64,000 nt of DNA from Thuidium tamariscinum (Eukaryota; Streptophyta; Bryopsida; Hypnales; Thuidiaceae). Under the pieces are notes generated by a model. That model had not been told where the DNA came from. It did no database searches and worked only from the letters and a program-made list of their open reading frames with translations. Each line of letters opens with the position of its first letter. Positions within the stretch are counted from its first letter, which is position 1. Where the stretch lies: NCBI GenBank assembly GCA_947034885.2, contig OX344758.2, forward strand, positions 5,272,501 to 5,336,500, read 5' to 3'. The position numbers and the translations under genes were made by a program. This document shows, one piece after another, positions 9,704 through 60,003 of this stretch.

Positions 9704-10001
9704 CTAGGGGAGGACACTTCTTGTGTATTTGGGGGACCCATGTGCGGCGGTGGGGTATTTTTAGGGGGGCTATCAACTACTTGTAATCATTACTTGGCAA
9801 CATTAAAAGAGCCCCTATTTTACCATAAAGTGGAAAAATCAGCCATATTATCATCCCTATTTTATTTTTAAAACACTTTGCCTTTTTAATGTCCCCTATT
9901 TTATATATAAATTTCTTATAAATTTTACCTAAGATTATTTAAATGTACCCTATCTTCCGCCGTACATAGGTTATTAAAAAATGGGAAGTGTCCTCCCCAG
10001 G
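9704..10001 (+). mobile_element. 298-bp hAT-type miniature element, copy 1
   Basis: Termini CTAGGGGAGGACACTTC and GAAGTGTCCTCCCCAGG are inverted repeats. The flanking 8-bp target duplication TTTCAAAG is exact (9696-9703 and 10002-10009). An 8-bp duplication with C(T/A)GGG-type ends is the hAT superfamily signature. No coding capacity; it would need a hAT transposase in trans. Three further copies of identical length lie at 11313, 12404 and 17716 (inverted). Confidence 0.9.
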
Positions 10002-11312: not shown

Positions 11313-11610
11313 CCCGGGGAGGACACTTCTTGTATATTTGGAGGACCCATGTGCGGCAGTGGGGTATTTTTAGGGGGGCTATCAACTACTTGTAATCATT
11401 ACTTGGCAACATTAAAAGAGCCCCTATTTTACCATAAAGCGGAAAAATCAGCCATATTATCATCCCTATTTTATTTTTAAAACACTTTGCCTTTTTAATG
11501 TCCCCTATTTTATATGTAAATTTCTTATAAATTTTACCTAAGATTATTTAAATGTACCCTATATTCCGCCGCAGGTAGGTTATTAAAAAACGGGAAGTGT
11601 CCTCCCCTAG
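11313..11610 (+). mobile_element. 298-bp hAT-type miniature element, copy 2
   Basis: Starts CCCGGGGAGGACACTTC and ends GAAGTGTCCTCCCCTAG. Exact 8-bp target duplication TCATTAGT at 11305-11312 and 11611-11618. The small open frame at 11274-11480 is a chance frame running into this element; the same peptide appears in the inverted copy at 17716. Confidence 0.9.
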
Positions 11611-12403: not shown

Positions 12404-12701
12404 CTAGGGGAGGACACTTCTTGTGTATTTGGGGGACCCACGTGCGGCAGTGGGGTATTTTTAGGGGGGCTATCAATTACTTGTAATCATTTCTTGGCAA
12501 CATTAAAAGAGCCCCTATTTTACCATAAAGTGGAAAAATCAGCCATATTATCATCCCTACTTTATTTTTTAAACACTTTGCCTTTTTAATGTCCCCTATT
12601 TTATATATAAATTTCTTATAAATTTTACTTAAGATTATTTAAATGTACCCTATCTTCTGCCGCATGTAGGTTATTAAAAAACGGGAAGTGTCTTCCCCGG
12701 G
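12404..12701 (+). mobile_element. 298-bp hAT-type miniature element, copy 3
   Basis: Starts CTAGGGGAGGACACTTC and ends GAAGTGTCTTCCCCGGG. Exact 8-bp target duplication GGTAGTTT at 12396-12403 and 12702-12709. Same length and interior as the other copies, with a few substitutions. Confidence 0.9.
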
Positions 12702-17715: not shown

Positions 17716-18013
17716 CTAGGGGAGGACACTTCCCGTTTTTTAATAACCTATGTGCGGCGGAACATAGGGTACATTTAAATAATCCTAGGTAAAATTTATA
17801 AGAAATTTACATATAAAATAGGGGACATTAAAAAGGCAAAGTGTTTTAAAAATAAAATAGGGATGATAATATGGCTGATTTTTCCACTTTATGGTAAAAT
17901 AGGGGCTCTTTAAATGTTGCCAAATAATGATTACAAGTAATTGATAGCCCCCCTAAAAATACCCCACCGCTGCACGTGGGTCCCCCAAATATACAAGAAG
18001 TGTCCTCCCCGGG
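17716..18013 (-). mobile_element. 298-bp hAT-type miniature element, copy 4 (inverted)
   Basis: Same element as 9704 in reverse orientation: begins CTAGGGGAGGACACTTCCCG and ends GAAGTGTCCTCCCCGGG. Exact 8-bp target duplication AGGTCTCA (17708-17715 and 18014-18021). Confidence 0.9.
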
Positions 18014-23829: not shown

Positions 23830-25489
23830 GGCTACAACACTAGCATCTAATCCACATTAGTAAATGATTTTATATAGAATTTTCTATTTAATATATTCCA
23901 TCCTCTATTTTTTTTTCTTCCATTGAAGGTGCTATGAATGCATTGAGAGCCCCAACTGAACTCTATCTTGTACATTAAGTGACAAACATAATTTATTGCC
24001 TCATAAATCTCCCTTTTCAATATATTCCATTTCATGTTTTATTCCTCTATTGTAAATATTATGATGCTCCAATAGACCCAATTCAATGTCACACCCTTAG
24101 TGACAAGCATTTATCATAAGTTAAAGGTTAACTCAAATGCTCAACCTCAAATTTTTCATGTAGCTTGATAAATAAATAAAAATTGAAACACTTATTTTTA
24201 ATCCAAAGTTTATTTTAATGTAAAAATTTGAAACACTTATTTTCTAAACCTAAGTTTATTTTAATATTTCTTGATTTTGTATACATTGACTCCACAATAC
24301 TACCATAGATCTAATCCGCATTGGTAACTTGGGTTGGCATGTAGCCCAAGCTTTCCAATATGTTCCAACCTTGGTATAAAACCTAGTTTTTAACATACTC
24401 CAACCTTCAATTGGTGTGTTCCTCCGTTGAGGATGCCATGATGCCTCTCTCTCTCTTGCACCCTGAGGTACAAGCATTTATTGCAAGGGCAAGGTTGACT
24501 CAATGCTCAACCTCCAATTTTCAAGTTGCCTGCTCAATGTAAGAATTTGCCTCTATTTTGTGGTTGGTTAAATTAATGAGAGCCTCTCTAATCTCATTGA
24601 GGGCAGTAATTAAGCATATTTTTCATTTACAGTCTGGCAATGATAGTGAATTTTACAAACTCTCCTGTTGCCAAGGACAACTGCATGAGATGTGCGAACA
24701 AGGGACCCTGCTAGAACTTCTACGTGATAAGAAACTGCAAGATCAATTCGGAGTGAAAAATTTTCAATAGTTTCATTGCTAAGCAAGAATCTTGACAACT
24801 TTGAATGACGAAGTTTCTCCTGAATCATATGGAAGCAAAATTCACTTCACTTTCACCTCTCCCCATGTGTTTCATTGAGGCTATGTTCCGAGTTTAAAGA
24901 AGATTGTGCAATTTCAAGCTTCTGATGTATTTTAAGCCGTTATGATGGTTTTAGGATTTCAGTCTGTTGCTAACAGACATAAAACAATATCTGAGCATGC
25001 AAATTTACGTGCTGTTTGTGTGAATGCTAAACAAAATGAGTATTTAGTAGGATAAAGCTCCTTGACTTCTGGTGTTATTTGTGCAAAAAAAAGTGCCGCA
25101 AGGGATGTCTTCTCATGATCGACCTACTTAATTTCCATGCCCCATGGTTATTGGACGCAAATGCTTGAAACATTAGTTATGTGGAAAATCTTGTTGTGAT
25201 ATGAGGTGTGTAGAAGATATTGAACACTGAGTAAACATAGTGTACAGTGTATCCTCAATATTCTCAGCACATTCCATAGCATAATCTCTCACCCATTCTA
25301 AGTTTTGTGATCACAAAGATTCAACTCATATGCAATTCAAAACGTGTGACAGGTGCATATGATTGCAACTTCTGGTGATTTGAGGTCAGTTCTATGCCGT
25401 TGAACTTCAAATATTCGTATTAATTCAGGCTCGGAAAACAGTATTCCTATTCATTATAATGGTGTGGATCTAGGTTTTTGAAAAATGAA
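23830..25489. other. Intergenic; one weak ORF
   Basis: The plus-strand frame ending at 24770 contains a stretch (HEMCEQGTLLELLRDKKLQD) that looks more protein-like than its surroundings and could be an isolated exon or relic, but no partner exons or domain were found. Confidence 0.35.
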
Positions 25490-26203
25490 AGCTTAGCTGA
25501 ATGATCGAATGCCAAGGCCAACAGTATGGAACAGCAGACTGAAAACATGAAATCTATTAATGCCCACGTCAAGAATGAAGCTGAGCAATCACATCCCCTC
25601 TGCGATTATCATCCTGGAGACTAGAATTTAGCCCAGGAGCTGCTCTCTAATTGCGCTTCCCATCGTTGCACGTGGACATTAATATCATTCATGTGTTCTT
25701 TCTTCCATGAATCATCTCCGGTGTCGATGCAAGTATGGCAGTTTCAAAATTTTCCATAATCGATGACTGCTGCAGCATTCCCTGAATCTGAAGGCACGCA
25801 CTGCGTTGGTGAGGATGGCGAACGTCAGTTCTACAACTACATGTCACAACTCCAATCAAGTATCAGCTGTAGACACCCAACATCTTGTACAATGTCTATG
25901 CCAGGTCCAGCTTAACTTAGTATCACCTGAAACCTGACAGCAGAAAATTAAGTTGAGTAACGTAATCAGTAATGTAGGAAATTCTCCAAGCAATCGAAGT
26001 TAGGCAACGTGAGCGAGATAAGCGGCACTACTGAATGATCGTCAAGAAGCACAATCGATCGATAACCGCAAGTCATTGACCATGCCGTACTGAATTCCAT
26101 TACATGGAACTTGTGCAAAATTATTCAAGTACTGCCCTCCTGCCTGGTAGAACGCGCACAAATTCTAAGGTAGGGGCTGTTTAAGGTTGAAGCAGAGGAG
26201 AAG

Positions 26204-26333
26204 GATGGCGAGAGCGATGGTGGAAATTCAGGGCAGAGGCAGTGGATTTGGACAGCACACTTAGGGTTTCCTTAAGCATACCATCGTTATCCATTGCCCC
26301 ACGCTGGCTCCCCTTCCGACTTCGTCATTTCTC
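26204..26333 (-). ncRNA. MIR408: MIR408-like precursor hairpin, diverged copy
   Basis: On the minus strand the 5' arm (GGAAGGGGAGCCAGCG, then TGGGGCAATGGAT) pairs with the 3' arm carrying a miR408-like segment at 26227-26247. Relative to canonical miR408 this segment differs at positions 3 (G to C), 14 (U to G) and 20-21 (GC to AA). The position-3 change is matched by the opposite change in the other arm (pair 26245/26291 is C-G where MIR408 has G-C), so pairing is kept; the changes at positions 20-21 weaken the base of the duplex. The loop contains CTTAAGGAAACCCTAAG as in the partner. It may be a functional variant with altered targets or a decaying paralog. Expression is not shown by the sequence. 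Confidence 0.6.
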
Positions 26334-26883
26334 TCGCTCCGTATGTACCAAAGAGAAACGGAGTTAACTTAATAGCGTACCCTGAACGAAGGATCACAAA
26401 ACCCTAATACAATGTGGCGCTAACCGGAAACATATCTACAGAGTCCACAGGTCAGGCAGTACAACAGATCTACCAGATGAACATCACAACGGAATCAGTA
26501 AACAAATCTCTGAAAGCGTAGTCGATCGACAAAACAAGAATTGAAGCTATCGGCAATTAAAGAAAACACAGATCAGTTGACAATGGGCAATTCAGTTGTG
26601 AGAACGAAACCAGTTAAAAACCCTACGAAGTAAATAAGAATTATTCTAAAACAAGAATTGAATCGGCACAGATACTCGCAAGAGATTGTCGTTGGATACA
26701 TGCATGACGACATTAGATTGAGTAACTAAACTAGGTATGGATAAGGAATTACAGATTCAGATGCTAAGAATGAGCATCCTCCAAATCTTGTGAAGTGCTA
26801 CAAGACACACCTCCATGCTTCCAAAACCTGCTTTCCAGCGGACTTAAGTAAGAGAGTCCATGAACAAGCAAAATGGTCACAAA

Positions 26884-26971
26884 GTACTTAAAAAATGGGT
26901 CGTACTGCAACCAGTACTGCAAGGTAGTACGAGTGCCAGTTCAAGCCCCAAAATTAAAGCCGCAATGGTAC
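26884..26971 (-). promoter_or_regulatory. GTAC cluster upstream of the MIR408-like hairpin
   Basis: Five GTAC tetramers in 88 bp (26884, 26902, 26914, 26927, 26968). At least three align with GTAC tetramers at equivalent places in the right arm (28273, 28263 and 28220) despite sequence decay around them. GTAC is the core of copper-response elements bound by SPL7/CRR1, and MIR408 promoters are known SPL7 targets in Arabidopsis. Confidence 0.6.
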
Positions 26972-27065
26972 TACAAGCTCGTATCGTCGATCCTTGGAAT
27001 ACAATCATCACTGCAATTTGCGAACTCGACAATCATCTTCGTCAAGTGCAATACATCAGTTACCC

Positions 27066-27764
27066 CCTATCTTTATCCATTTTTTAATCTTTCTTTCAAT
27101 TTTAGACTCTTTCCAAATTTTCAGTGATACAAACTACATGTGGTCAGCTTCATTTTGCTAGTTTAGCTTAAATACAAAAAAAAAGGAGTCTGAATGGTAT
27201 GAATCCAACTCAATAACATGCAGATACCATTGTAAGTAAGCTTTATTAAAAGCATTTGAATGTAAAAAGATAATATTTCATGTAGTGCAGCTGAATTTGC
27301 TAGCTGTTCCATCGCCATGGTCACCCATTGAGAAGAAGAGCCACAACGGGATGCATCCGACCACAAGCAAGTTGCTGTAAGTTAATTCCATGGAGTAATC
27401 AAGGAGAGAGATCAATGCTCACGCAAAACATTTATCCAGTACATAATCAGTGGCCGCATAAAAGGATCGACCAGTGAATTAATTGGTTCCGTAGCCAGAG
27501 CCGTGGCCGAAGAGATTGTGTTTCAAGAAAAAAAATTAGTTTGGTAGTTTAGTGTGACCTTGTTTCTTTCTTCTTCTTTTCGCCGGGTATTGTCCCTGGT
27601 CTGCTGGAATAGTATTGCTTAGTTCACTTTGAAACGCAATCCTCAGTTTCCAAAACAATTTAAAGAATATCGTAGAGATTTTGTTACCATTTCCTCAAAT
27701 CTCAGTGTTTCCGTTGTGCCAAAGGTATCTAATTGAGTAATTGCTGAAACAGCAGCTATGACGA
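27066..27764. other. Unique spacer between the MIR408 arms
   Basis: No homology to the arms was visible here and no gene. Contains ordinary AT-rich sequence and short open frames only. Confidence 0.45.
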
Positions 27765-27872
27765 GTTTGACTAGAATTTCAAAAAAAGAAAGAAAGATTT
27801 GGGCTATATGCCAAGTTTGACTAGAATTTCAAAAAAAGAAAGAAAGATTTGGGCTATATGCCAAGTTTGACT
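27765..27872. repeat. Tandem repeat, 50-bp unit, two copies plus a start of a third
   Basis: Units beginning GTTTGACTAGAATTTC start at 27765 and 27815 and appear identical; a partial third (GTTTGACT) starts at 27865. The unit includes AAAGAAAGAAAGATTTGGG. It sits near the centre of the inverted duplication. Confidence 0.85.
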
Positions 27873-27929
27873 GAAATCGAGAACGAAGGCCGTTCGATGG
27901 AATATCCTTTCCGTTGACAGAATCTGGTA

Positions 27930-28276
27930 GTACACTCACCGAGAATACGATTCGCCAGTCGGTAGTACACTTTTTGAAAGAGATCGTGGCCAGTTGGGTG
28001 TTTCTCCCGCCTACCTCGAGATTCTTGCGCGCTGCGACGATCTTGTACTACGAGCCTGTACTACCCCTCTACTACCAACTTTCTGCTAGTACACCGCAGT
28101 CGTGTGGCGTGATCCACCGAATGAGGAAGTAACCTGATGATTGCTGTACTGCACGAGGTCCCAGGCTCGCTAGTTTCTCGTGATGGTTTTGAAACGAGGT
28201 TCTACGAAACAAGCTTGCAGTACTCATGGCGGCTGTAATTTTAGGTCTGAACTTTGGCAGTAGTACAACATTGTAC
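27930..28276 (+). promoter_or_regulatory. GTAC cluster upstream of MIR408
   Basis: Nine GTAC tetramers in 347 bp (27930, 27965, 28045, 28058, 28089, 28146, 28220, 28263, 28273), many as AGTAC/GTACT with TAGTACA context; about one or two would be expected by chance. More occur nearer the hairpin (28463, 28624, 28655, 28684). Copper-response elements recognised by SPL7-type SBP-domain proteins have this core, so strong induction of MIR408 under copper shortage is expected. Confidence 0.65.
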
Positions 28277-29515
28277 TGGTTGCAATGCAATTGTTCTATG
28301 AGCTTGTGATCCTGTGGAGCTCTCTACTTAATTCCTCAGGAAAAGCAGGTTTCGGAAGCATTCAGAGGTGACTCATGGCGCTTCATTCTGTAGAGGGCTC
28401 TCTAATAGTCCATGGTGATAATACAGTGACGATTCGGCTGCTCATTCTTGGCACTTGGAGATGTACGTGTTGTGTTGTTTCTTAATGTTGTATCTCCGTG
28501 TTTCCCACCACACTGGAATTGTTAATTCTGCTTAGTTTCCTGTTGAAATGGAGATCTGTCGCAAAGCCTGACCCGTGATCTCTGCATGTTTTCTTCGGGT
28601 TAGCACTGAATTGAGCAGACGACGTACGTGTTTAGGGTTTCGTGTGCCTTCGTGGTACGTTTCTCCTGTTATCTTGGCCGGGTGTACAAGGTAAGGACAG
28701 TGTAAAGCGTGCGAGAAGAATGGCGGAGTCGGAAGGGGAGCCAGCGCGGGGCACTGCATGACGATGGCATGCTTAAGGGAACCCTAAGTGTGCTGTCCAC
28801 ATGCACTGCCTCTTCCCTGGCTTTCCTCCTTCTCTCTCGCCATTCGCCGAGCTCAGGCTCTGCTTCAACTTAAATTAAGCAGCTCGGCCTTGGGAGATGG
28901 GTGCGTTCTGAAACTACAGGTGGTCATGCAGTACTGAATAATTTGCACCTGTAGGTACGAACTTATGTAATGCTACACAGAAAGGTTTGATCGATGGTTG
29001 AGCTTCAGAAGTGCTCAAGACCAACTCAAGGCCTTCACCTATGGTTGCTTACCTCTATCCGAGAAAGAGTCGCATTACATTTTGTTATTGTAACTTGAGC
29101 TCTTGATCGAGCACCAGATTTTGCAGATTGTTACAGTGCTATGCTGCCAGGTCTCGGGTAATATATATCAGACACGGTGTGGGTTCGGCATTGTCACGTT
29201 GGTGATGAAATGTTTCAAGATAATACAAATGAATGCATTGCTATGTAGTTGCTCTGCTGATATTCCCTCACGAAATGCAGTGTTTCAGCAGGATAACGAT
29301 TCATTCAAGCTGAGGTTTGGAAACTCGGGTGTGGAGATTTGCGAAAGATGATGTTCGTGGAAGAGTGAACATATGAATGATATTAACGTCCACGTTCGAT
29401 GATGTGAATCTCAGTTTGCAGCTCCTGGTAGGTGAGCTATACTTCTGACGTGGGCGTTAATAGATTTCATGTGTTCAATCCGCCATTCTATCCCGTTCTC
29501 TTTGGCCGGGTTTTT
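28080..29515 (+). repeat. Right arm of MIR408 inverted duplication
   Basis: Mirror image of the left arm (see 25490-27065). Shared blocks run from the GTAC-rich promoter part (28210-28285), through TTTCGGAAGCATTC (28350), the MIR408 hairpin and CTCTGCTTCAACTTAA (28859), to GACGTGGGCGTTAATAGAT (29447). The order and spacing of blocks are the same in both arms, so whole transcription units were duplicated, not just hairpins. Confidence 0.8.
28718..28846 (+). ncRNA. MIR408: MIR408 microRNA precursor
   Basis: Positions 28801-28821 equal the canonical 21-nt plant miR408 (core TGCACTGCCTCTTCCCTGG) at every base. They lie in the 3' arm of a hairpin whose 5' arm (GGAAGGGGAGCCAGCG, then CGGGGCACTGCATG, 28731-28760) pairs with it; about 15 of 21 miRNA bases are paired, with an internal loop around positions 13-18, and pairing extends below the duplex (GAATGGCG to CGCCATTC). 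miR408 guides cleavage of mRNAs for copper proteins such as plantacyanin and laccases, sparing copper for plastocyanin. The promoter side is rich in GTAC copper-response cores. The mature segment begins right after the CTTAAGGGAACCCTAAG loop region and TGTGCTGTCCAC. Confidence 0.93.
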
Positions 29516-31035
29516 TTCAGTTTGGGCTGTCAGTTCCTGGAGGAGACCTGAGCAGGCAGAGGTGATCAATCCAGAAGCTTTCCAGCAGCGCAGTATGATA
29601 ACCTGGTTGGCATCTTTCGAAGGCTGTGAAAGAGGATGAATTGAAGGTGTGGGGTTGAACTGGTTCAGTGAAAAATCGTGCAGATTTCTAGTTGTTTTTA
29701 TCAGTTGCTTCTGTAGATGCTGTATGCGTCATTATGAAGAGCATTTGTTCGTAGGGTTTGTGATTTATGAGCGTCCTTTAATCTACGAAATAACCCAATT
29801 TTGGGTTATATATGTTGGCAACATGTTTATCTGAAAAGATTACATTGTTATTGCTGTCTTCCTGTGTAGGGTTTACGTTGAAGGAGCTAGCTGTTGGGGT
29901 TTAGCAGTAAAGTAGAGGATACTATTTGTGTCATTTAAGCATTTTTTTTCATTAATATGCACGTGTGATTTGGGGGAGATCAGTATTTGGTAGTGCTGGG
30001 GAGAGGTCTTTGATTACAAGAGGCAAATGGGTTGCATCAAATTACTATCAATATGTGTAAATTTCCTATTTGATTTCAAAGTAGGATGGGAGGTTGCAGA
30101 CACCAAAAGTGACAATGCACAACCCCATTCCATACAATTAAAATATGCTATTGTTTTGTTTTGTATTGTTTTATGTTGAGATCTTGTGTTCCAAGCATTC
30201 TCTCAGTCGGAAAGTTCTTGGCAAGGAGGGATGTATGGGCTTTGTTTCGTGGCATTCCGATTTACAGTGGGAAAGTTATTGAATTTCAAAGAATTAATCA
30301 ACTAAAAAATTAGAAAATTATTTTGATTTTGATTTTGGTTGTGGCACCACTTGGTAACTAAGTTAGTCCAATCAATATATTAGACCAATGTGTTAATAGA
30401 TGAAATGCTATTGATAACAATAAAGGAGAAAGATGAGGTCTCTATTGGATTTTGTATTTTTTTACCTTTTGTTACCTTCTTTCACATTAATGAATCAAAG
30501 TAATTGTAGATTAAAACAATTTAGTTGGAAAATTTGGAAAACAATGTGTAGAAATGTAATCACTTTTATTTTTGGAAGAGAAACCCAAAATGAAAACCCT
30601 TAAAATGTACACCTTCTAAAAATAAAAGATTAGGTTGGTATTAAGTACATCAATTATTAGCACTCCAAAAAAGTTGAACTTATTTATATTGTATCCAAAA
30701 ATTTATTTGTAGAAAATTCAATATCCTCTTTGAATTGTCTACAAGTATGAACAAAAATTAGGATAGTTTAGTAATGGGAACCATATTTGAATAACTATTT
30801 AGATGCTTTATTTGTGATTACTTTAACCAAAAATACTAGGTTTAAGATTTTCATGCAAAAGAATTAGTTGAAGCTTTATTAGTTTTAGGCTTTGGCCAAG
30901 ACAATACTAAAACCCAAACAATTGGATGGAGACAGTATTCAAGTTAGGTTCAAATATGAAATAGGAAGCTATTCAAAGGAAGTGGGAGCTCGTATTTAGA
31001 ACATTATATTTAGAACATTGAATTAAGATATTGAA
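29516..31035. other. Intergenic; includes one dispersed repeat copy
   Basis: 30150-30350 is a single copy of the repeat seen at 1868-2500 (TGTTGAGATCTTG, GTCGGAAAGTTCTTGGCAAG, GGGCTTTGTTTCGTGGCATT, TTTGATTTTGATTTTGG). The rest is AT-rich with no supported gene. Confidence 0.55.
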
Positions 31036-31296
31036 GTCATATTCATACAATTGAGTGTTAGGAAAATAACTCTTATTCAAAACAAATCTAAATCTAATTC
31101 TTTAAACCCTTGCTAGTACCAATTTATATACAAAGTGTAGTTATGTACCAATTTATCTATATTTTGTCATATTCATACAATTTAGTGTTAGGAAAATAAA
31201 TCTTATTCAAAAAAATCTAAATCTAATTCTTTAAACCCTTGCTAGTACCAATTCATATACCAAGTGTAGTTATGTACCAATTTATCTATATTTTGT
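31036..31296. repeat. Tandem duplication, 130-bp unit, two copies
   Basis: GTCATATTCATACAATT...CTATATTTT at 31036-31165 is repeated at 31166-31295 with a handful of differences (for example TTGAGTG versus TTTAGTG). The close similarity indicates a recent local duplication. Confidence 0.85.
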
Positions 31297-34849: not shown

Positions 34850-35090
34850 CATCCTTCCTTCACTGCTTGGAAGAAATTTTCTCTCGTTGATCGAATTATT
34901 GGAAGCTCATCCCTTGGAATTCTTTCTTGGGTTGCAGTCGCGTTGCCTGCAAGGAATTTCCCCGTGTTGAACAAGTTAGTGCTCTTGGACAATATCTGTT
35001 GTTGGAGCTCTTGACTGCATCTGCTGTAGTTTTTGGGTTTTGGGTGTTGGGTGTTGGCGTCGCTTTGGTGGACTGGGATTTTCGGAAGCG

Positions 35091-36132
35091 ATGGCTGCGT
35101 ATCGTGAGATTGAATTGAACGTGTTCTCGGCATCGGATTTGCGAGACGTGAGGGTCTTCGGCGGCAAGATGAGTCCATACGTGGTGGCGTGGATTCACCA
35201 TGACATGAAAGCTTACAGTCCCGTGGACGAGAAAGGGAGCACCAACCCTAGTTGGAATGCTAAGCTGATGGTGTATGGCAACGAGGCCGCACTCGTGCAT
35301 CCCGACGAAGCTGTTATCTACTTCGAGCTGCACGACGCCGCGTCGACGTCCAACCGACTCATCGGATCCCTCGCCTTGCCGCTAGCCGACTTGCACGGCA
35401 ACATTGCCGCCATCAAGGAACCTAGCGAGCCCGTGGTCCTCAACCTCCCGGTATGTCTCGTGCCTGTCACTCTCTTTCTCTATCAATCAACTCTGTGCGA
35501 GAATTCACGGTTTTTAGACTCTTCTTCACAGTCTCTCATTTGCAAAGGGTGTGGAATAGGGCTATGTTTTGGGTATTCATGTTGTTAATGGGTGGCATTG
35601 TTTTTTCTAGTTTTTTTTGCTTGTGGCTGGACTGGCACCATGACGATTGTCATGGTAGATATCCAAACTGACAACAATGTACAGTTCTGGTTGAATAATT
35701 TTGTGGTTATTCCATTAAAAACGGCTACTACGACGAATGTTTTGAATATCATGCCACGAAATCCACTTCCACTTTTTTCATTTTCATCCGTCGTAGTGCC
35801 ATGTGATGACTTTGGTGAGCTATGGAGTAGAAGTAAGTCGTGAGGGCAGGTGACTGTTTGAAAATCACATCAATGTGCTCATACTACTGGTACGATTGCT
35901 TGAGCAGGTGAAAAGACCTTCGGGACGTGTACAAGGAGTGCTCAACTTCACACTAAAGATGGGAGGTGTGACCTCTGAGCCGGTGCTCTCGGAAGCACAC
36001 CACGACGAAGAAGAAAATGCAGCAGCAGGTGACCTGGCCGACGACGAGTTGTCTTGTGCTCCTGCAGGTTGTTGTGTCCCAATCCCTCATTTCCACCGAG
36101 AAAATGCGGGCACGAATGTGTTCGCACACTGA
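35091..36132 (+). CDS. Small C2-domain protein (SRC2-like), two exons
   Basis: Exons 35091-35450 and 35908-36132 (donor CTCCCG|GTATGT, acceptor TTGAGCAG|GTG, phase 0) encode 194 residues. Residues 4-125 form a C2 fold: beta strand YREIELNVFSASDLRDV, then KMSPYVVAWI, the STNPSWN motif at 50-56, and VIYFELHDAASTSNRLIGS. This resembles plant SRC2/BAP-type C2 proteins, which bind membrane phospholipids in stress and defence signalling. The position usually Asp before PYV is Ser28, and loop acids are few, so calcium-independent binding is likely. The tail is acidic and then carries SCAPAGCCVP, whose cysteines could be acylated or cross-linked. Start choice: ATG at 35091 begins the conserved domain; a non-ATG extension upstream is not supported. 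Confidence 0.8.
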
Positions 36133-38800: not shown

Positions 38801-41800
38801 TCAGATGCCTTTCACATCTAGATACTCCCGTAAAATGCTATTCCGATCGGGCTGCCTGAGCTTGCGCATGGCTTGAGCCTCAATTTGTCTTATCCTTTCT
38901 CGACTTAATTTGAAAGTAAGGCCTATTTCCTCTAAAGTCCTGGATAGTCCATCGTCAAATCCAAACCGCATTCGAAGAACGTCCCTCTCTCGCGGACTGA
39001 GAGTGCGTAACACTCGCTCTACATCCTGTTTCAGCAATTGCTTCACAATGCCATCCTCAGGTGACTCGACGCCTTTGTCAGCAACCAACTCCTGCGAAGA
39101 CGAGGACTTTGAATCAGAAAACGGAATCAAACCAGAAGCTTACACGAATCAGGACAAGGCAAAAGAATTCCAACATGACAGTGAACCTCATCAAAGTGTA
39201 ATACTTGACAGTGATCATAAACCCTAGATTCGTGGTTTTGAATGACCAAATCGACTGATCATAATATGAAAAATGTAGTTCAGATGAGGCCAAATTTTGC
39301 ATCACCAGAATCAGGTGAAGAACATTGCAAGTGTTGGTCGGAAAATAAGTAGAATTGGACACAAGAAGCCTCCATATCAATGCTAACAGAACATGAGGCC
39401 CAATTCGGTCCTTAATAGGGCTTAAGTTTGAAACCATACCCCAACCATGGTGGTTCCCTCTTCGAAAATGGTCCGCTCCATCGAAGTTGGGGCCCTAGCT
39501 GCTTTCACTATCGTTTGCAACTTTTCCACACTCAGACCAACCAGCTCAGCCACTTCTTCATCAAGGGGTTTCCGCCCATGCTCCATAACCAATGCCTTTT
39601 TAGCTTTGTTGATACGTGAGATGACTTCATATACATAAATCTGAAAAAAACAAACCAGGAGATTACATATAAGATTTCATAGCCATATGTCAGCAGCAAA
39701 TCAAAGTGTTCGATATATATGGATGAACATGCTCTTGACATAGAACCACAACAAAACTTTGATTTTCATCTGACTGAGGCGATCTTTTGAATTGAAACTT
39801 CCACGAGTAAAAACAAAAATACTTCCACACTGAGATATCGTAACTTTAACATTGTTCTACTAAATGAGTTCAATACTAGGGGCATATGACAAGTCAAAGA
39901 GAAACTCACTGGTAAACGAATAGTCCTGGATTGATCCGCAATGGATCGTGTGATGGCCTGCCTAATCCACCAATATGCATAAGTACTAAACTTAAAACCC
40001 TTGTCAGGATCGAATTTCTCAGCTCCCCTTATCAACCCCAGGCTTCCTTCCTGATCCAAAGAAGCAAAGCATATAAACGCCAATTCAAGATAAACATCCA
40101 ATCATGTCAAGGAATTCATTAGCAGGTTTCGATTGATGTATTAGAATAAAACATGTTTCAAACAATGCATGCGTTAACATTATACTGGAAAGTCAACCAA
40201 AAGTAGAAGAATTCAGGGTTGAGAAGAACATATGTGTATATATGGAGATATTTGGTATCAGACCTGAATTAAGTCTTGAAAAGTCATGCCTCGACCCTGG
40301 TAGTCTTTGGCTATGGAGACAACCAACCGCAAATTTGATTTCACCATCTTCGCCTTCGACAATCGGCCCTCTTCAACTCGCAATTCAAAAGCATTCTGCT
40401 CCATTCCCACCGCTCGACACCACTCACTTATGGTGGGTTCCCTTCCTACCTCTCGCTTAAGATCAGCTTTCACTTTCTCCAATTTCAGAAGATCCTGCTT
40501 GACAGAAGGAGGTCAGTCTAAGATCATCCCATTTACGAGTTCAAGTTGCCTCAGCACAATACATACATAATGCCTCAACCTCTTCAAGCATCTCATCATG
40601 TAGCTTAACCCCAAAAGGAACAAGAGGCCCAAATTCGGCCTTTTTCGTACTTCAGCCATTTGCGGGGGGGCATATCGGCATTACCTATTGTTCAATCCTC
40701 TTAATTTACGACCAACACATGCACTGTTCTTCACTGGTCATGTACAAACACTGAAATCTCGATAAGTTAATATCGCCAAACTTTTTAGGATATGCAATAC
40801 TCTAGAAAAATAATTTCCAAAAAATGGAAAGAGAATCCTCACCTGAATCTTTCGAGATAAAGCAACTTCTTCAAGTGCTGTTAGCAGCTTGGTTTTCCCG
40901 ATGTCACGCAGATAAGCACGGACAGGGTCCGAAGGAACCTGCGAAATCTGGAGCTTCTTCGGCTTCGGCGCAGCAGGTGCAGCAGCAAGGGCAGTGGCTA
41001 CTTTCTCCGCCTTTACCAAGGCTCGCTCCCGCCTCCTCACCCTTTCTCCTTTGCGCTTCGATTTGACTGTAGTGTCGACACGAGGCAGTCCGTCGGCTGC
41101 AATCCCCGCGTTCATGAAATCTACAAGCCTGACGTGTTTTAATCAGCTTCACACTTTTCTATGTATTTCTTTAGTGTAATGACTAAACCCCCATCTTCAT
41201 CATGTTACATTCTATACCCAAATTGAGCACTTGAACATGGCAGACCGTCTCAAGCATAATCTATACCAGATATGCCCTTGACCGCACACCCCAGATTCCA
41301 AACGATTTGGCAAAGTTCAAAATTGTCAACTAATTTGAAACCATTTAGTAACGAACATTCAATACTTTTTTGAAAGCAATGGCTTCCCCTACACCGCACA
41401 TGCACCACCCGTCCACTGCACATAGTTGTTCTCACGGGCCTTGTTCTCACTTGCTTCGAGAGTAAAAGTTGATCACATAAAAAGCTAATTGCAATTCTAC
41501 ATTCGATGATTGTGTGTGTGGAATTCACAAGAAGGGAAAAACATTACTGCAAAAAATTCTAGCAACCAAATGGCATGCCTACCCTAGTTCGGTTTAGCCG
41601 ATGATGGACAAGGCTCATTAAAACGAAAGACCATTCAGCATTCCTCACAAGCCAAGCCTTGGATATTGCTTCGTTCAAAACTAGTACCTGCATCCTCCTC
41701 CACTTCAGTAATAGAAGTGGTGCCCTCAGCCTCCCTTACGAGAGAGGATACACATCCCAGGAGCAATTCAAGATGCTCAACAAAACCCTGCTCGGCTTCC

Positions 41801-56796: not shown

Positions 56797-57156
56797 ATGG
56801 CTAGCTTGCCCCAGGACACTGACCAAGGACGCATTTGGATTCCTCACATTAGAGAAACACTACATGTCTGGTGCACATTAGTAGGAGCTAGCCAATTACA
56901 AAGTCGCCAAATACTGTCTCTTTTAGATAGGCGACACTTACTACACAAGACTGTCCGCAAGGGCATAAAGAAGAAAGACACGCCACGAGGGCTTCGTTTT
57001 TTATTTCGTCACCACTACGCACGAATCTTAGGGTGGAGAGATAGACTACCTGAAGGTCATCCCGAGGGCTTCAGTCCAGAGGTCAACCACGCTTTGAGAG
57101 TTTTATTGTGGCCAGACGCTGGTGCTTCGCCTTGCGCTTGCCGTATTTGTGCTTAG
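56797..57156 (+). CDS. 119-residue ORF upstream of the piggyBac transposase
   Basis: Starts ATG 56797, just after the palindrome, and ends TAG 57154-57156, overlapping the transposase frame (+1 relative) by 35 bp. Basic, with a His/Arg-rich middle (RKGIKKKDTPRGLRFLFRHH) and Cys near the end (CACRICA). No recognised domain. It could be a separate element protein, or an N-terminal exon of the transposase joined by splicing or once in frame. Composition is clearly protein-like. Confidence 0.45.
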   Translation: MASLPQDTDQGRIWIPHIRETLHVWCTLVGASQLQSRQILSLLDRRHLLHKTVRKGIKKKDTPRGLRFLFRHHYARILGWRDRLPEGHPEGFSPEVNHALRVLLWPDAGASPCACRICA

Positions 57157-60003
57157 ACCCCCTGGTTCACCATCGACACAGTCTCTGCGCAATTCTCTTC
57201 GAAGTAGCTTCTACTTTACATTGAGTACAGTCATAGAAAGCAAATCTGCTCACTTCGGCGGTGTGACTACACGCTCTGCTGCCGCCGCCAATGTCTCTCG
57301 TCCTTCACAGCACGTTGCACAAGAAAACGAAGACCATGCGTCACGGCATTTTCACAACGTCATTGAAGACATCAGTACTTCTCACTATCGAGGTATACCT
57401 AGAAGTCGTGAAAGGAAGGATGTCAGTGTCGATGACTTAGCTAGAAGCATGCCTGTTGTTGATAACATGACCACACCTGATGATCGTAACGAATTGTGTC
57501 CACCGGTTCAGCTTCCGCACGTCGGTGCCACCTACATCTTGCCTTGGAGGGGACAGCGGTGGCTACTGCAAATCGGTGCGCCTGAACATGCCAACAATAC
57601 ATCGACATCGCCTACGCTTGTCCGCTTCTTGTCATCTTCCGTCGCTACCAACGTCGGCACTGTCACTTCGGAACATGAACGGACCTGGACACTTGGATTA
57701 GTCATTCACTCCTACTTCCGCAGCGGAAGTAGGAGCCTCATGCATGTTGTCATGCTTGACAGTGGTGAAGAACTTCATATCGGTAGTGGTAACGTTGAAC
57801 GTCTTGCTATCATTCAGAATTGCGATGACATAACAGATCCACATGAAGCCGACATAGCTTCTTCTATGCATGTGTCCGGAGGACATGCGTCATCTCTTGC
57901 CGGGGAAGACATTTCAGCGACGTCCATCGAAACTCCCGAGTCACCATTGCGACATGACTTCACTCTTCAAAATGACATAGTCCACGATGATCTAGATGAG
58001 TCGTGGATGTCATGGTATGACTTTGCAGATGACAGTCTTCCACATGACACGCTCCATCCGAGAATTGTTGCACCTCCGACCGATGACGCCAATCTGCCGC
58101 GCACACGACGCACTAATCAAATTAGAGGAAGGGCGACATCAGTCCAACCACCTACCTGTGAAAACATCCTTACACCCTCTGATGCAGCAGATCAACGTCC
58201 AGAGCGACTGGATGGAGGAAGTGTACCTACTGCCGAGCATGTCGACCACGAAGTAGGAGGCTCCCAGCGACCATCACGAAAGCGAACGCGAGGTCTAAGT
58301 ACTGAAGCACCTCATCACTCGGAACGTGGACAAAGAACTCCACCAACTTGTACCGGCAGCTCCATGCACGACAACACTATTCCAACATCGGCGACGACTG
58401 CCACCGTCACTGATCCGCCTCGACGATGCAGCACTGGTGTGAGGCAGTCCGCAGCTGCAGCTCGGGCAACATTTCTCAAGGAGTTCGGTGTAGCGAAGTG
58501 GAGCACGAATACATCTACATTTGCTAAGCAACCTTCACCGTTTACGGGACCTACTCTAGGACCAAGCTTCCCAATCAATCGCATGCCCAACAAGTCGATG
58601 CTATTCAGTCGATTCTGGAGCGAGTTGACGTTAAACCGCATTTGTGCTGATACTAATCGGTATGCAAGCGAAGTTCTGACTGGGAGGACTATGATGATTG
58701 GAGGCAGAAAGTGGTGGCCCCTTCACAAGGAGGAGTTGAAAGCTTTCTTAGCAGTGAACCTTCTGATGGGCATCAAGCGTCTTTCGAATCATCACAGCTA
58801 CTGGAACAAGCGAAATGAGTTCCTGTACTGTCCAAGTATATCGTCCATCATGTCTTGCCGCCGTTATGAAGATGTCACGCGTTGTCTTCATATTGCAAAT
58901 GACAGTGTGCTAGTGCAGGCAGGTGACGATGTTGAGTTCAACAGGCTCAGGAAGATGCGTTGGTTGGTCACAGAAATGAAGTTGCGCTTCAAGAGCAATT
59001 GGCAGTTGCATCAAGAAGTAACTGTAGATGAGACTATGGTGGCCTACAAAGGTAAGTACTGCCCTGTTAGGCAGTACAGCCTACTAAATGGGGCATCAAA
59101 GTCTGGTGTCTTGCAGATGCGCGCCAGAAGTACGTGTTTGATTTTCAAATCTACACAGGATCCCAATTCAGAGAGTCGTTGAGCGGTGCTCTGATGGGAG
59201 ACGCCAAAACTGGTCATGACGTCGTGCTCCAACTAATGGAGGGTCTGCATGGCAGGTCACATGTAATGACAACGGACAATTTCTTTACGTCAATTAAGTT
59301 ACTGTTGGAGCTGCGTTTTCGGGGCACGTACGGAGTGGGAACGGTACGCAACAACCGTCTGGGTTTGCCTCCGTGCTTTCAAGACATGAAGCGTCTGTCG
59401 AAGGACCCTCAAGGCACCTTGTATTGGCGAATGCATGCGACAGCTACCATTGCGTGTATAGTGTTCGTCGATCGTCGAGCTGTGAAGATGTTGTCAACAT
59501 TTTACTCGCCTGTGCCTGCAGCTAGGGAGTCCTGGCCGACAGTTCCAAGACGCATTGACGGAGTTGTCCAGGACTTGGAAACTTCTCCGATCCATAAAGG
59601 GTATTCGGACTTTATGCGTGGTGTCGACGTTGCAAACCATCTACGAGGCAGTTACACATGTCAAAGTCGAAGCCACAAGTGGTGGCACAAGATTTTCTTT
59701 TATCTTGTGGACACGTCAATTGTCAACTGCTACATTTTGCACAAGGTGGCTTCACAGCAGCTTGCGAAGGCAGCTTTGTCACATATGCAATTTCAGTTTC
59801 ATTTGGCGGATGAGTTCAGTCGACCGTGGCGGCAAGAACGTGGTGCAATTTCTCAATTCCGGTTGGCATCAACCGGAGTCCATGGGTTGGTCCGTGCCGA
59901 TCGTCGGCGCCAGTGTCGCTACTGTCGAGGCGTCATTCAGACAAGTATGATGTGTCCTCAATGTGGGGGTATATTTCTTCATGCTGGTGACTGTTTCCAG
60001 TGA
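57122..60003 (+). pseudogene. piggyBac transposase (DDE_Tnp_1_7 type), frame broken
   Basis: Two frames together encode a piggyBac transposase: 57122-59182 and, in another frame, 59134-60003. Residues ~130-225 of the first look like a Tudor/chromo-type barrel (GATYILPWRGQRW; LGLVIHSYF; HVVMLDSGEELHIGSGNVER). The transposase domain starts near residue 475 (FPINRMPNKSMLFSRFWSEL). The first catalytic Asp is D636 (TVDETMVAYKG, codon 59027). The second is in MTTDNFFTS and the third in MRGVDVANHLRGSY of the second frame; WWHKIFFYLVDTS carries the fourth conserved Asp. The C-terminus is a Cys-rich finger (C-x2-C, C-x2-C, H, C). Near 59078 conserved sequence passes from one frame to the other (PTKWGIKVW continues in the second), so a small deletion has broken it. 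A consensus donor (AAAG|GTAAGT, 59051) and acceptor (CTTGCAG, 59118) could splice the break out in frame. Confidence 0.88.

Follow-up and report, generated by a model that had tools for sequence, protein, structure and literature searches.

A divergent MIR408 pair in two inverted arms

The window analysed here (64,000 nt of the moss Thuidium tamariscinum, contig OX344758.2, positions 5,272,501-5,336,500) contains an inverted duplication with a left arm (25511-27011, reverse strand) and a right arm (28180-29506, forward strand), each of about 1.3-1.5 kb and each carrying one MIR408-type hairpin. A sequence-only reading of this DNA had reported that the arms match block by block, and this was confirmed by blastn comparison of the left part, reverse-complemented, with the right part. 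The homology extends beyond the ~130-bp hairpins as collinear blocks in inverted order: 26180-26337/28711-28874 (82%, E 1.5e-42), 26791-26994/28197-28385 (70%, E 2e-15), 25633-25717/29346-29428 (78%, E 2.5e-14), 25511-25571/29446-29506 (80%, E 4.5e-11) and 26419-26471/28552-28604 (74%, E 5e-4), plus an extra block, 26906-27011/28180-28284 (75%), recovered by blastn with softer scoring. The arms are separated by a central spacer without clear arm homology (27012-28179), close to the interval 27066-28079 proposed previously, of which positions 27170-27650 show a 75% match to a second MIR408 locus of this genome (C1, see below). In three segments compared outside the hairpins, the two arms are 54-67% identical.

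The right MIR408 hairpin (28711-28843, forward strand) bears on its 3′ arm the sequence ATGCACTGCCTCTTCCCTGGC (28801-28821), identical in 21 of 21 letters to miR408-3p as a published table gives it for ath-miR408 (PMC4368373). It folds at -70 kcal/mol (z -5.7), with none of 200 dinucleotide shuffles as good. The Rfam MIR408 model (RF00690) scores it at 23.1 bits, and the C1-right and C1-left hairpins and that of a third locus, C5, at 25.2, 22.9 and 29.5 bits (mature-sequence strand throughout); all are below the gathering score of 64, which is a database cut-off and not a biological definition. The left hairpin (26205-26337, reverse strand) is 86% identical to the right one over 133 nt and also folds well (z -4.8; 0/200 dinucleotide shuffles as good), and a G-to-C change in its mature strand is matched by a C-to-G change in the star strand. 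Its mature-equivalent (26227-26247, reverse strand), ATCCACTGCCTCTGCCCTGAA, departs from the conserved miR408 sequence at four of 21 letters; the counterpart on C1 keeps TGCACTGCCTCCTCCCTGGC. The variant string was not found in the literature searched, and the Rfam MIR408 model did not report the left hairpin at E values up to 5. Judged by its letters, the left hairpin is MIR408 by descent only, and its miR408 has drifted, a point whose meaning the sequence-only reading did not bring out.

A second conserved hairpin downstream of MIR408

A second conserved hairpin, overlooked in the sequence-only reading, lies 0.5-1.8 kb downstream of MIR408 in each arm and on C5, the spacing being about 0.5 kb in the unit and 1.8 kb on C5. 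In the right arm it spans 29355-29490 (forward strand), with the 5p strand at 29374-29394 (TGAATGATATTAACGTCCACG; the predicted 5p microRNA is given here as UGAAUGAUAUUAACGUCCACG) and the 3p strand at 29451-29471, and folds with z -5.3 over 29340-29515. The left-arm copy (25534-25711, reverse strand; 5p 25671-25691, 3p 25546-25566) has a more modest fold (z -1.9; 3/100 shuffles as good) and carries one C-to-T change in 5p together with a matching G-to-A in 3p, that is, a compensatory change of a C:G to a T:A pair. Over the five copies in the genome the fold z values are -5.3, -1.9, -3.0, -3.0 and -4.9. The 5p strand is identical (22/22) in the right arms of the window and C1 and in C5, and conservation covers the arms and lower stem, leaving the loop free. 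The element thus combines a conserved stem-loop and conserved arms with an almost complete 21-nt duplex, as in a MIRNA gene, the window's left copy being the weaker one. Blastn matches to it were confined to regions downstream of MIR408. Searches of Rfam 15 returned nothing convincing at E values up to 5 or 10, and 16-18-letter stretches of its 5p and 3p strands were not found in the main text of the literature searched. A weak Rfam match to SNORD110 (E 0.82) overlaps the C1-left copy.

Duplication history of the locus

The window's locus (C10) was compared with the other two MIR408 contigs of the same genome, C1 and C5, so the comparison is within a single species. C1 shows the identical divergent arrangement, collinear with the window pair, spacer included, and holds a syntenic counterpart of the left MIR408 hairpin. 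C5 has a single MIR408; a search there for a left partner matched only the MIR408 unit itself and weak pieces at chance level. Among 174 informative 2:2 sites in the four arms of C10 and C1, 153 group by arm (the two right arms together and the two left arms together), 13 by locus and eight are crossed. The old inverted duplication of the whole MIR408 gene, as claimed previously, is supported, and the divergent pair is older than a later whole-locus duplication. Within the MIR408 hairpin all six informative sites group by locus and none by arm (Fisher 6e-8), which amounts to about five events, since one base pair accounts for two of these sites; this pattern, overlooked in the sequence-only reading, suggests gene conversion between the MIR408 hairpins of each locus.

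As a synteny marker, we used the exons of a sigma-70-type factor (38801-41142, reverse strand; Pfam Sigma70_r4, r2 and r1_2 in three frames), with paralogues at C1:8405773 (88%) and C5:3490973 (74%). In the three loci the sigma-factor gene lies downstream of MIR408 in equal relative orientation, which fits the expectation for old block duplications. The two-hairpin unit, as on C5, would then be the oldest state; the divergent pair would have arisen from it by inverted duplication, unless the left arm was lost on C5, and would have been copied whole to C10 and C1, with later exchange of MIR408 hairpin sequence between the arms within each locus.

GTAC elements upstream of both hairpins

MIR408 is a copper microRNA regulated by SPL7 through GTAC, the core of the SPL7 site. 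The interval between the two MIR408 hairpins holds 19 GTAC copies, where the density elsewhere in the window would predict 5.3, an enrichment of about 3.6-fold (binomial 6e-6, for an interval picked after seeing the sites). Nine of them form the right cluster (27930-28276), which no other 400-bp stretch of the window surpasses in GTAC density, with a GTAC-rich stretch at 28146-28276 and further copies at 27930-28092; the left cluster (26884-26971) contains five copies in 88 bp. Conservation between arms is modest: upstream of the hairpin, two GTACs (28220 and 28263) align across all four arms, against a background of 17 invariant four-letter words out of 123, and one more four-arm column lies downstream of the hairpin, at 28931. 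The sequence-only reading proposed one central regulatory region shared by both units; some GTAC sites are shared by position, so sharing is possible, but a single shared central promoter is not required because each arm has its own GTAC-rich stretch. From the GTAC enrichment, induction of MIR408 by SPL7 under copper deficiency is predicted.

Predicted target sites

Of 17 non-hairpin miR408 sites, two are canonical sites at phytocyanin genes, each with three mismatches. One precedes a phytocyanin-like match by about 60 nt (L025); the other coincides with the start codon of an ORF for a phytocyanin (L027), whose Pfam Cu_bind_like match (E 0.002) falls narrowly short of the cut-off. Phytocyanin/plantacyanin genes are predicted targets of the right MIR408. 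The left variant has five mismatches at L025 and four at L027; its 16 genomic near-matches, itself included, equal the 16 of a reversed control, giving no sign of a target set, and none of its 15 non-self sites lies by a copper gene with the queries used.

The 5p strand of the second hairpin matches 15 genomic places with ≤3 mismatches, four of which are the hairpins, against two for the reversed control. Copper-protein genes adjoin five of the 13 non-hairpin 5p sites examined and none of 23 comparison sites (eight for 3p and 15 for the left miR408 variant), the latter queried only with gene families already met at the 5p hits. The five genes encode a Cu/Zn-SOD, an ascorbate oxidase, another multicopper oxidase, a phytocyanin and a galactose/glyoxal-oxidase-like protein. 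The candidate SOD site (two mismatches) is about 560 nt past the last recognised SOD exon; the multicopper-oxidase site precedes the likely start codon by about 740 nt; and the phytocyanin assignment (L067) is weak, with no Pfam match and a PDB stellacyanin match at E 0.005. A recognised copper gene was absent at seven of the 11 non-hairpin sites with ≤3 mismatches, and also at L090. A looser 5p search gave 38 places and its control 17, but 21 of the 38 are one repeat word, and once this word is set aside no excess remains. These 5p sites are candidate targets by genomic complementarity and may lie in mature mRNAs, and the second hairpin looks like another copper-saving microRNA. The 3p strand was considered as a guide and rejected: it matches 12 places against two in the control, eight of them non-hairpin and several being repeat copies, with no copper gene by the queries used.

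A probable two-microRNA copper-deficiency unit in mirror image

The anatomy of the locus, its conservation, the order in which it was duplicated, the GTAC enrichment and the target complementarity are all read directly from the DNA. They lead us to consider it likely that a single copper-deficiency regulatory unit, with two linked microRNAs, has been duplicated here in mirror image. Each unit would comprise a GTAC-rich promoter followed by the MIR408 hairpin and, some 0.5 kb beyond it, the second hairpin, probably on the MIR408 primary transcript; the 1.8 kb between the hairpins on C5 weakens the case for co-transcription there. The transcription, co-transcription, copper response and cleavage that we infer would proceed as follows: when copper is short, an SBP factor of the SPL7/CRR1 type would bind the GTAC elements and both arms would be transcribed outwards; miR408 would lower plantacyanin-type mRNAs, the second microRNA would lower those of the five copper-protein genes listed above, and copper would be freed.

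The earlier suggestion that the arms give rise to long double-stranded RNA, or to siRNAs, has in its favour the 1.3-1.5 kb inverted repeat itself. We reject it as the main reading and hold it to be very improbable, because the units point apart, so that outward transcription would leave no single transcript with both arms, and because the arms are so weakly similar outside the hairpins. The second inverted repeat could instead be some DNA element, or a 3′-end structure of the MIR408 transcript; its restriction, by blastn, to regions downstream of MIR408 would agree with this, and its microRNA status here is a prediction from sequence. Nevertheless, its MIRNA-like conservation, the identity of 5p across old duplicates and the complementary sites beside five copper-protein genes make this alternative improbable too. 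There is a real chance, which we place somewhat below even, that the left arm in the window is a relic in decay, with a miR408 strand that no longer fits plantacyanin, and that the working loci are C1, C5 and the right arm of the window. The four changed letters, the control-level number of near-matches and the mismatches at L025 and L027 point that way, whereas the good fold, the compensatory change between mature and star strands, and the retention of the left GTAC cluster and second hairpin argue against decay.

The identity of the second microRNA bears on how much of the preferred copper-deficiency unit is new. Physcomitrium patens is reported to lack miR398, with PpCSD1 targeted by miR1073 instead (PMC9502370), so moss copper saving from Cu/Zn-SOD and copper oxidases is only partly known. 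We think it slightly more probable than not that the second hairpin is the orthologue of Physcomitrium miR1073, in which case only the linkage to MIR408, the additional targets and the inverted duplication would be new; the linkage may already show in Physcomitrium data. The Cu/Zn-SOD gene with its nearby 2-mismatch 5p site agrees with this orthology, as does the presence in the genome of a word like miR534, a moss microRNA family. On the other side, Rfam 15 gave no convincing match and the 5p and 3p strings were not found in the literature main text searched. The likeness to miR1073 is one of reported target, the predicted action on Cu/Zn-SOD; in the parts of the literature searched, we found neither linkage of miR1073 to MIR408 nor additional copper-oxidase targets. 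Orthology to miR1073 would rename part of the two-microRNA unit, and does not exclude it. A stronger claim, which we make only tentatively and regard as rather doubtful, is that of a new moss copper microRNA family, coupled physically and transcriptionally to MIR408 and acting jointly with it on a broad set of copper proteins, in a unit that would have persisted as a head-to-head, self-homogenising duplicate from before the block duplication of C1 and C10.

Relation to known microRNA genes

The locus shares with MIR408 (RF00690) the identical 21-nt mature sequence of the right arm, on the 3′ side, the phytocyanin target sites and a GTAC-rich upstream region. It differs in that MIR408 is present in two divergent copies, which arose by an old inverted duplication and are each followed by a second hairpin. 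Like miR398 of seed plants, the second microRNA would be a copper microRNA acting on Cu/Zn-SOD, although the letters of miR398 are unrelated. The bryophyte polycistronic gene MIR390-MIR11676 of Marchantia (PMC9291395) likewise places two distinct microRNA hairpins close together on one strand; the present locus differs in that both predicted microRNAs would serve one nutrient response and that the unit is duplicated head to head. If MIR408 is coupled with a second copper microRNA, this would give an economical account of moss copper saving, with concrete sites, and the inverted pair lends itself naturally to testing whether microRNA hairpins undergo gene conversion with one another.

Origin and age of the divergent MIR408 pair

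Comparison of the two arms within the window (contig C10, 5272501–5336500) revealed collinear blocks across 25511–27011 and 28180–29506, with E-values as low as 1.5e-42, and the inverted arms proposed by the sequence-only reading are thus real. In the right hairpin miR408-3p has its canonical sequence; in the left one 4 of 21 letters are changed. Both fold far better than shuffled sequences. The Rfam MIR408 model scored the right hairpin at 23 bits, versus a gathering score of 64, and did not report the left one, so that it is the mature sequence, the hairpin and the targets that support membership in the MIR408 family. The central spacer includes a tandem repeat (27757–27875; unit of ~50 bp, 96% identity).

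A search of the genome (363 Mb in 19 contigs) with the right hairpin as query identified six MIR408-type places: one in each arm of the window, a divergent pair in contig C1 (locus L007), a single copy in contig C5 (locus L009) and an extra copy of the right hairpin on the minus strand of C10 (locus L008, 5206703–5206869; 98% over 167 nt), 94 kb away. The mature word of this extra copy has two changes in 20 nt and its upstream part is GTAC-rich; no match was found there to the second hairpin, a further microRNA-like structure that is conserved downstream of each MIR408 of the pair.

Window positions 24762–29588, spacer included, are collinear with the C1 locus, and we aligned the left and right arms of both loci. 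This gave 174 sites split 2:2, of which 153 grouped by arm (right with right, left with left), 13 by locus and 8 were crossed; likewise, in three segments outside the hairpins, orthologous arms were 70–86% identical versus 54–72% between the two arms of one locus. Judging from this alignment, the inverted duplication is older than the copying of the locus, because the sites group by arm and the orthologous arms are more identical, which bears out the old age previously attributed to it. Sequence searches of the genome detected no left partner at C5; therefore, either the inversion occurred after the C5 split or the partner was lost at C5.

Two paralogues of the sigma-factor gene of the window (38801–41142, minus strand) were identified, one ~12 kb away from the C1 pair and the other 24–26 kb away from the C5 MIR408 copy, with 88% and 74% protein identity, respectively, over the searched exon. 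Both lie downstream of a right-type MIR408, on the strand opposite to it. A fourth match (46%), at 40.07 Mb of C1, has no MIR408 anywhere near. Read from this single sigma-factor exon, the arrangement fits ancient duplications of blocks or of the whole genome, C5 being the older split. An exon for a C2-domain protein (34980–35588, plus strand) lies between the MIR408 pair and the sigma-factor gene.

Putative exchange between the inverted arms

Within the MIR408 hairpin (28711–28843), all six informative sites of the four-arm alignment grouped by locus and none by arm, whereas outside it 7 did so and 153 followed the arms (Fisher 6e-8); the flanking sites 28710 and 28846, just beyond the hairpin, grouped by arm. 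Two of the six sites pair with each other in the predicted fold, forming one base pair, so that they represent about five independent changes. The simplest reading of this pattern is gene conversion between the inverted arms, limited to the MIR408 hairpin. On visual inspection of the alignment with C5 as outgroup, C1 carries the derived state at four of the six sites and C10 at the other two, and both loci therefore seem to have exchanged. No such pattern was seen in the second hairpin, where 16 sites grouped by arm and none by locus.

The upper stem and loop of the two hairpins of the window (26205–26337 and 28711–28843) are more similar than the mature region, which is unusual among plant microRNA genes and may be due to gene conversion.

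GTAC motifs in the putative promoters

Passages of two papers describe GTAC as the core bound by SPL7 under copper deficiency (PMC8745667, PMC8430956). At the density seen elsewhere in the window, positions 26870–28690 should contain 5.3 GTACs; they contain 19. No other 400 bp of the window are as GTAC-dense as the cluster that begins at 27930 (chance of such clustering 0.007 under uniform placement). Groups of GTACs also precede the C1, C5 and extra C10 copies. Two upstream GTACs are column-matched in all four arms and one further in three of them, while downstream of the hairpin the GTAC column at 28931 is common to all four. This sharing is suggestive of conservation among arms, although not strongly so, because 17 of the 123 four-letter words of the promoter stretch are invariant.

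A second hairpin downstream of MIR408

Two ~40 bp blocks, inverted repeats of each other, occur ~0.5 kb downstream of MIR408 in all four arms; at C5, the corresponding hairpin is 1.8 kb downstream. The right-arm stem comprises 34 base pairs, and the fold z-scores were -5.3 (window right), -1.9 (window left), -3.0 (each of the C1 copies) and -4.9 (C5). The five copies keep their arms and lower stem but vary in the loop, as expected of plant MIRNA genes, and the left copies have in common a compensatory change of a C:G to a T:A pair. The 5p strand is likely the guide, because C10-right, C1-right and C5 have the same 22 letters there (ATGAATGATATTAACGTCCACG), while at C5 the 3p word has 3 differences in 21 positions. 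Using blastn, we found the second hairpin in the genome only adjoining MIR408 (both C10 arms, C1-right and C5), the C1-left copy being identified from the comparison of the window with C1. Rfam returned no convincing family, and none of the open-licence papers searched prints the second-hairpin strings in its main text.

Candidate targets of the 5p strand

Allowing up to three mismatches, the 5p word matched 15 genome places, four hairpins and 11 others (three from one repeat family), versus two for the reversed control. We examined the contexts of these 11 sites in loci of ~3 kb, and four adjoin copper-protein genes. Site L064, which pairs at positions 1–19, precedes the likely start of a multicopper oxidase (Pfam Cu-oxidase, Cu-oxidase_3) by ~740 nt. 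The other three are downstream: L068 ~97 nt from the stop codon of an ascorbate oxidase (PDB 1aoz, E 8e-72), L063 ~560 nt from the final exon recognised for a Cu/Zn superoxide dismutase (Sod_Cu, E 1.4e-10), and L067 ~400 nt from the stop codon of a phytocyanin, which had no match in Pfam and hit cucumber stellacyanin best in PDB (E 0.005). No copper-protein gene was recognised within the loci of the remaining seven sites.

A looser search with the first 18 letters of 5p retrieved 38 places, versus 17 in the control, but 21 of them are a single repeat word and there is no excess once it is removed. This word, TGAAAGATATTAACGTTC, with 21 copies over many contigs of the assembly and two letters away from the first 18 of 5p, might be a decoy or a chance match. 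From its eight further single places we examined two, picked by pairing: L089 lies ~300 nt past the stop of a galactose-oxidase-like gene (GO-like_E_set), and L090 showed no copper gene.

Copper-protein genes were thus beside 5 of the 13 examined 5p sites but beside none of 23 comparison sites (eight of the 3p strand and 15 of the left miR408 variant) screened with identical queries (Fisher 0.003). This contrast has limited weight, as only those gene families already found at the hits were looked for at the comparison sites. Collapsing repeats and scoring L064 as a miss, since its main exons were found only after extending the locus, the figures were 4/11 versus 0/15 (p ~0.02). As a positive control, canonical miR408 has 17 non-hairpin sites, two of them at phytocyanin-type genes: L027 is located at the initiation codon of a phytocyanin ORF that scores just below the Pfam cut-off, and L025 lies ~60 nt before a phytocyanin-like match.

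Proposed function and relation to known systems

Most likely, each arm would be a copper-deficiency unit producing miR408 and the second microRNA from the same or neighbouring transcripts; we infer transcription, shared transcripts, copper response and cleavage alike. The left miR408 of the window (26227–26247, minus strand) could be a relic, to which we give somewhat less than an even chance: its mature sequence has drifted and a genome near-match search revealed no target set for the variant, although its hairpin keeps its pairing.

miR408 and its copper biology are already known, and the original paper on moss miR1073 is reportedly that of Higashi et al. in 2013. Two MIR408 precursors are listed for P. 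patens in a section of PMC8745667, and miR1073 is reported to act on Cu/Zn-SOD in extracts of PMC9502370 and PMC10048073. Bryophyte polycistronic MIRNA genes are also known, with 25% of P. patens microRNAs stated to be polycistronic in an excerpt of PMC9291395. In the portions of the open-licence literature consulted, we found neither a coupling of MIR408 to another copper microRNA nor a head-to-head MIR408 duplication described.

Other observations

One genome word has a single mismatch to miR534, a moss family (~0.1 expected), and the source is therefore probably a moss. The window also contains PiggyBac-like transposase frames at 57098–60003 on the plus strand (Pfam DDE_Tnp_1_7 for 59071–60003), four copies of a ~292-bp repeat, 94–97% identical and one of them inverted (9707–9998, 11316–11607, 12407–12698 and 17719–18010), and a tandem duplication of ~131 bp at 31036–31296 (96% identical).
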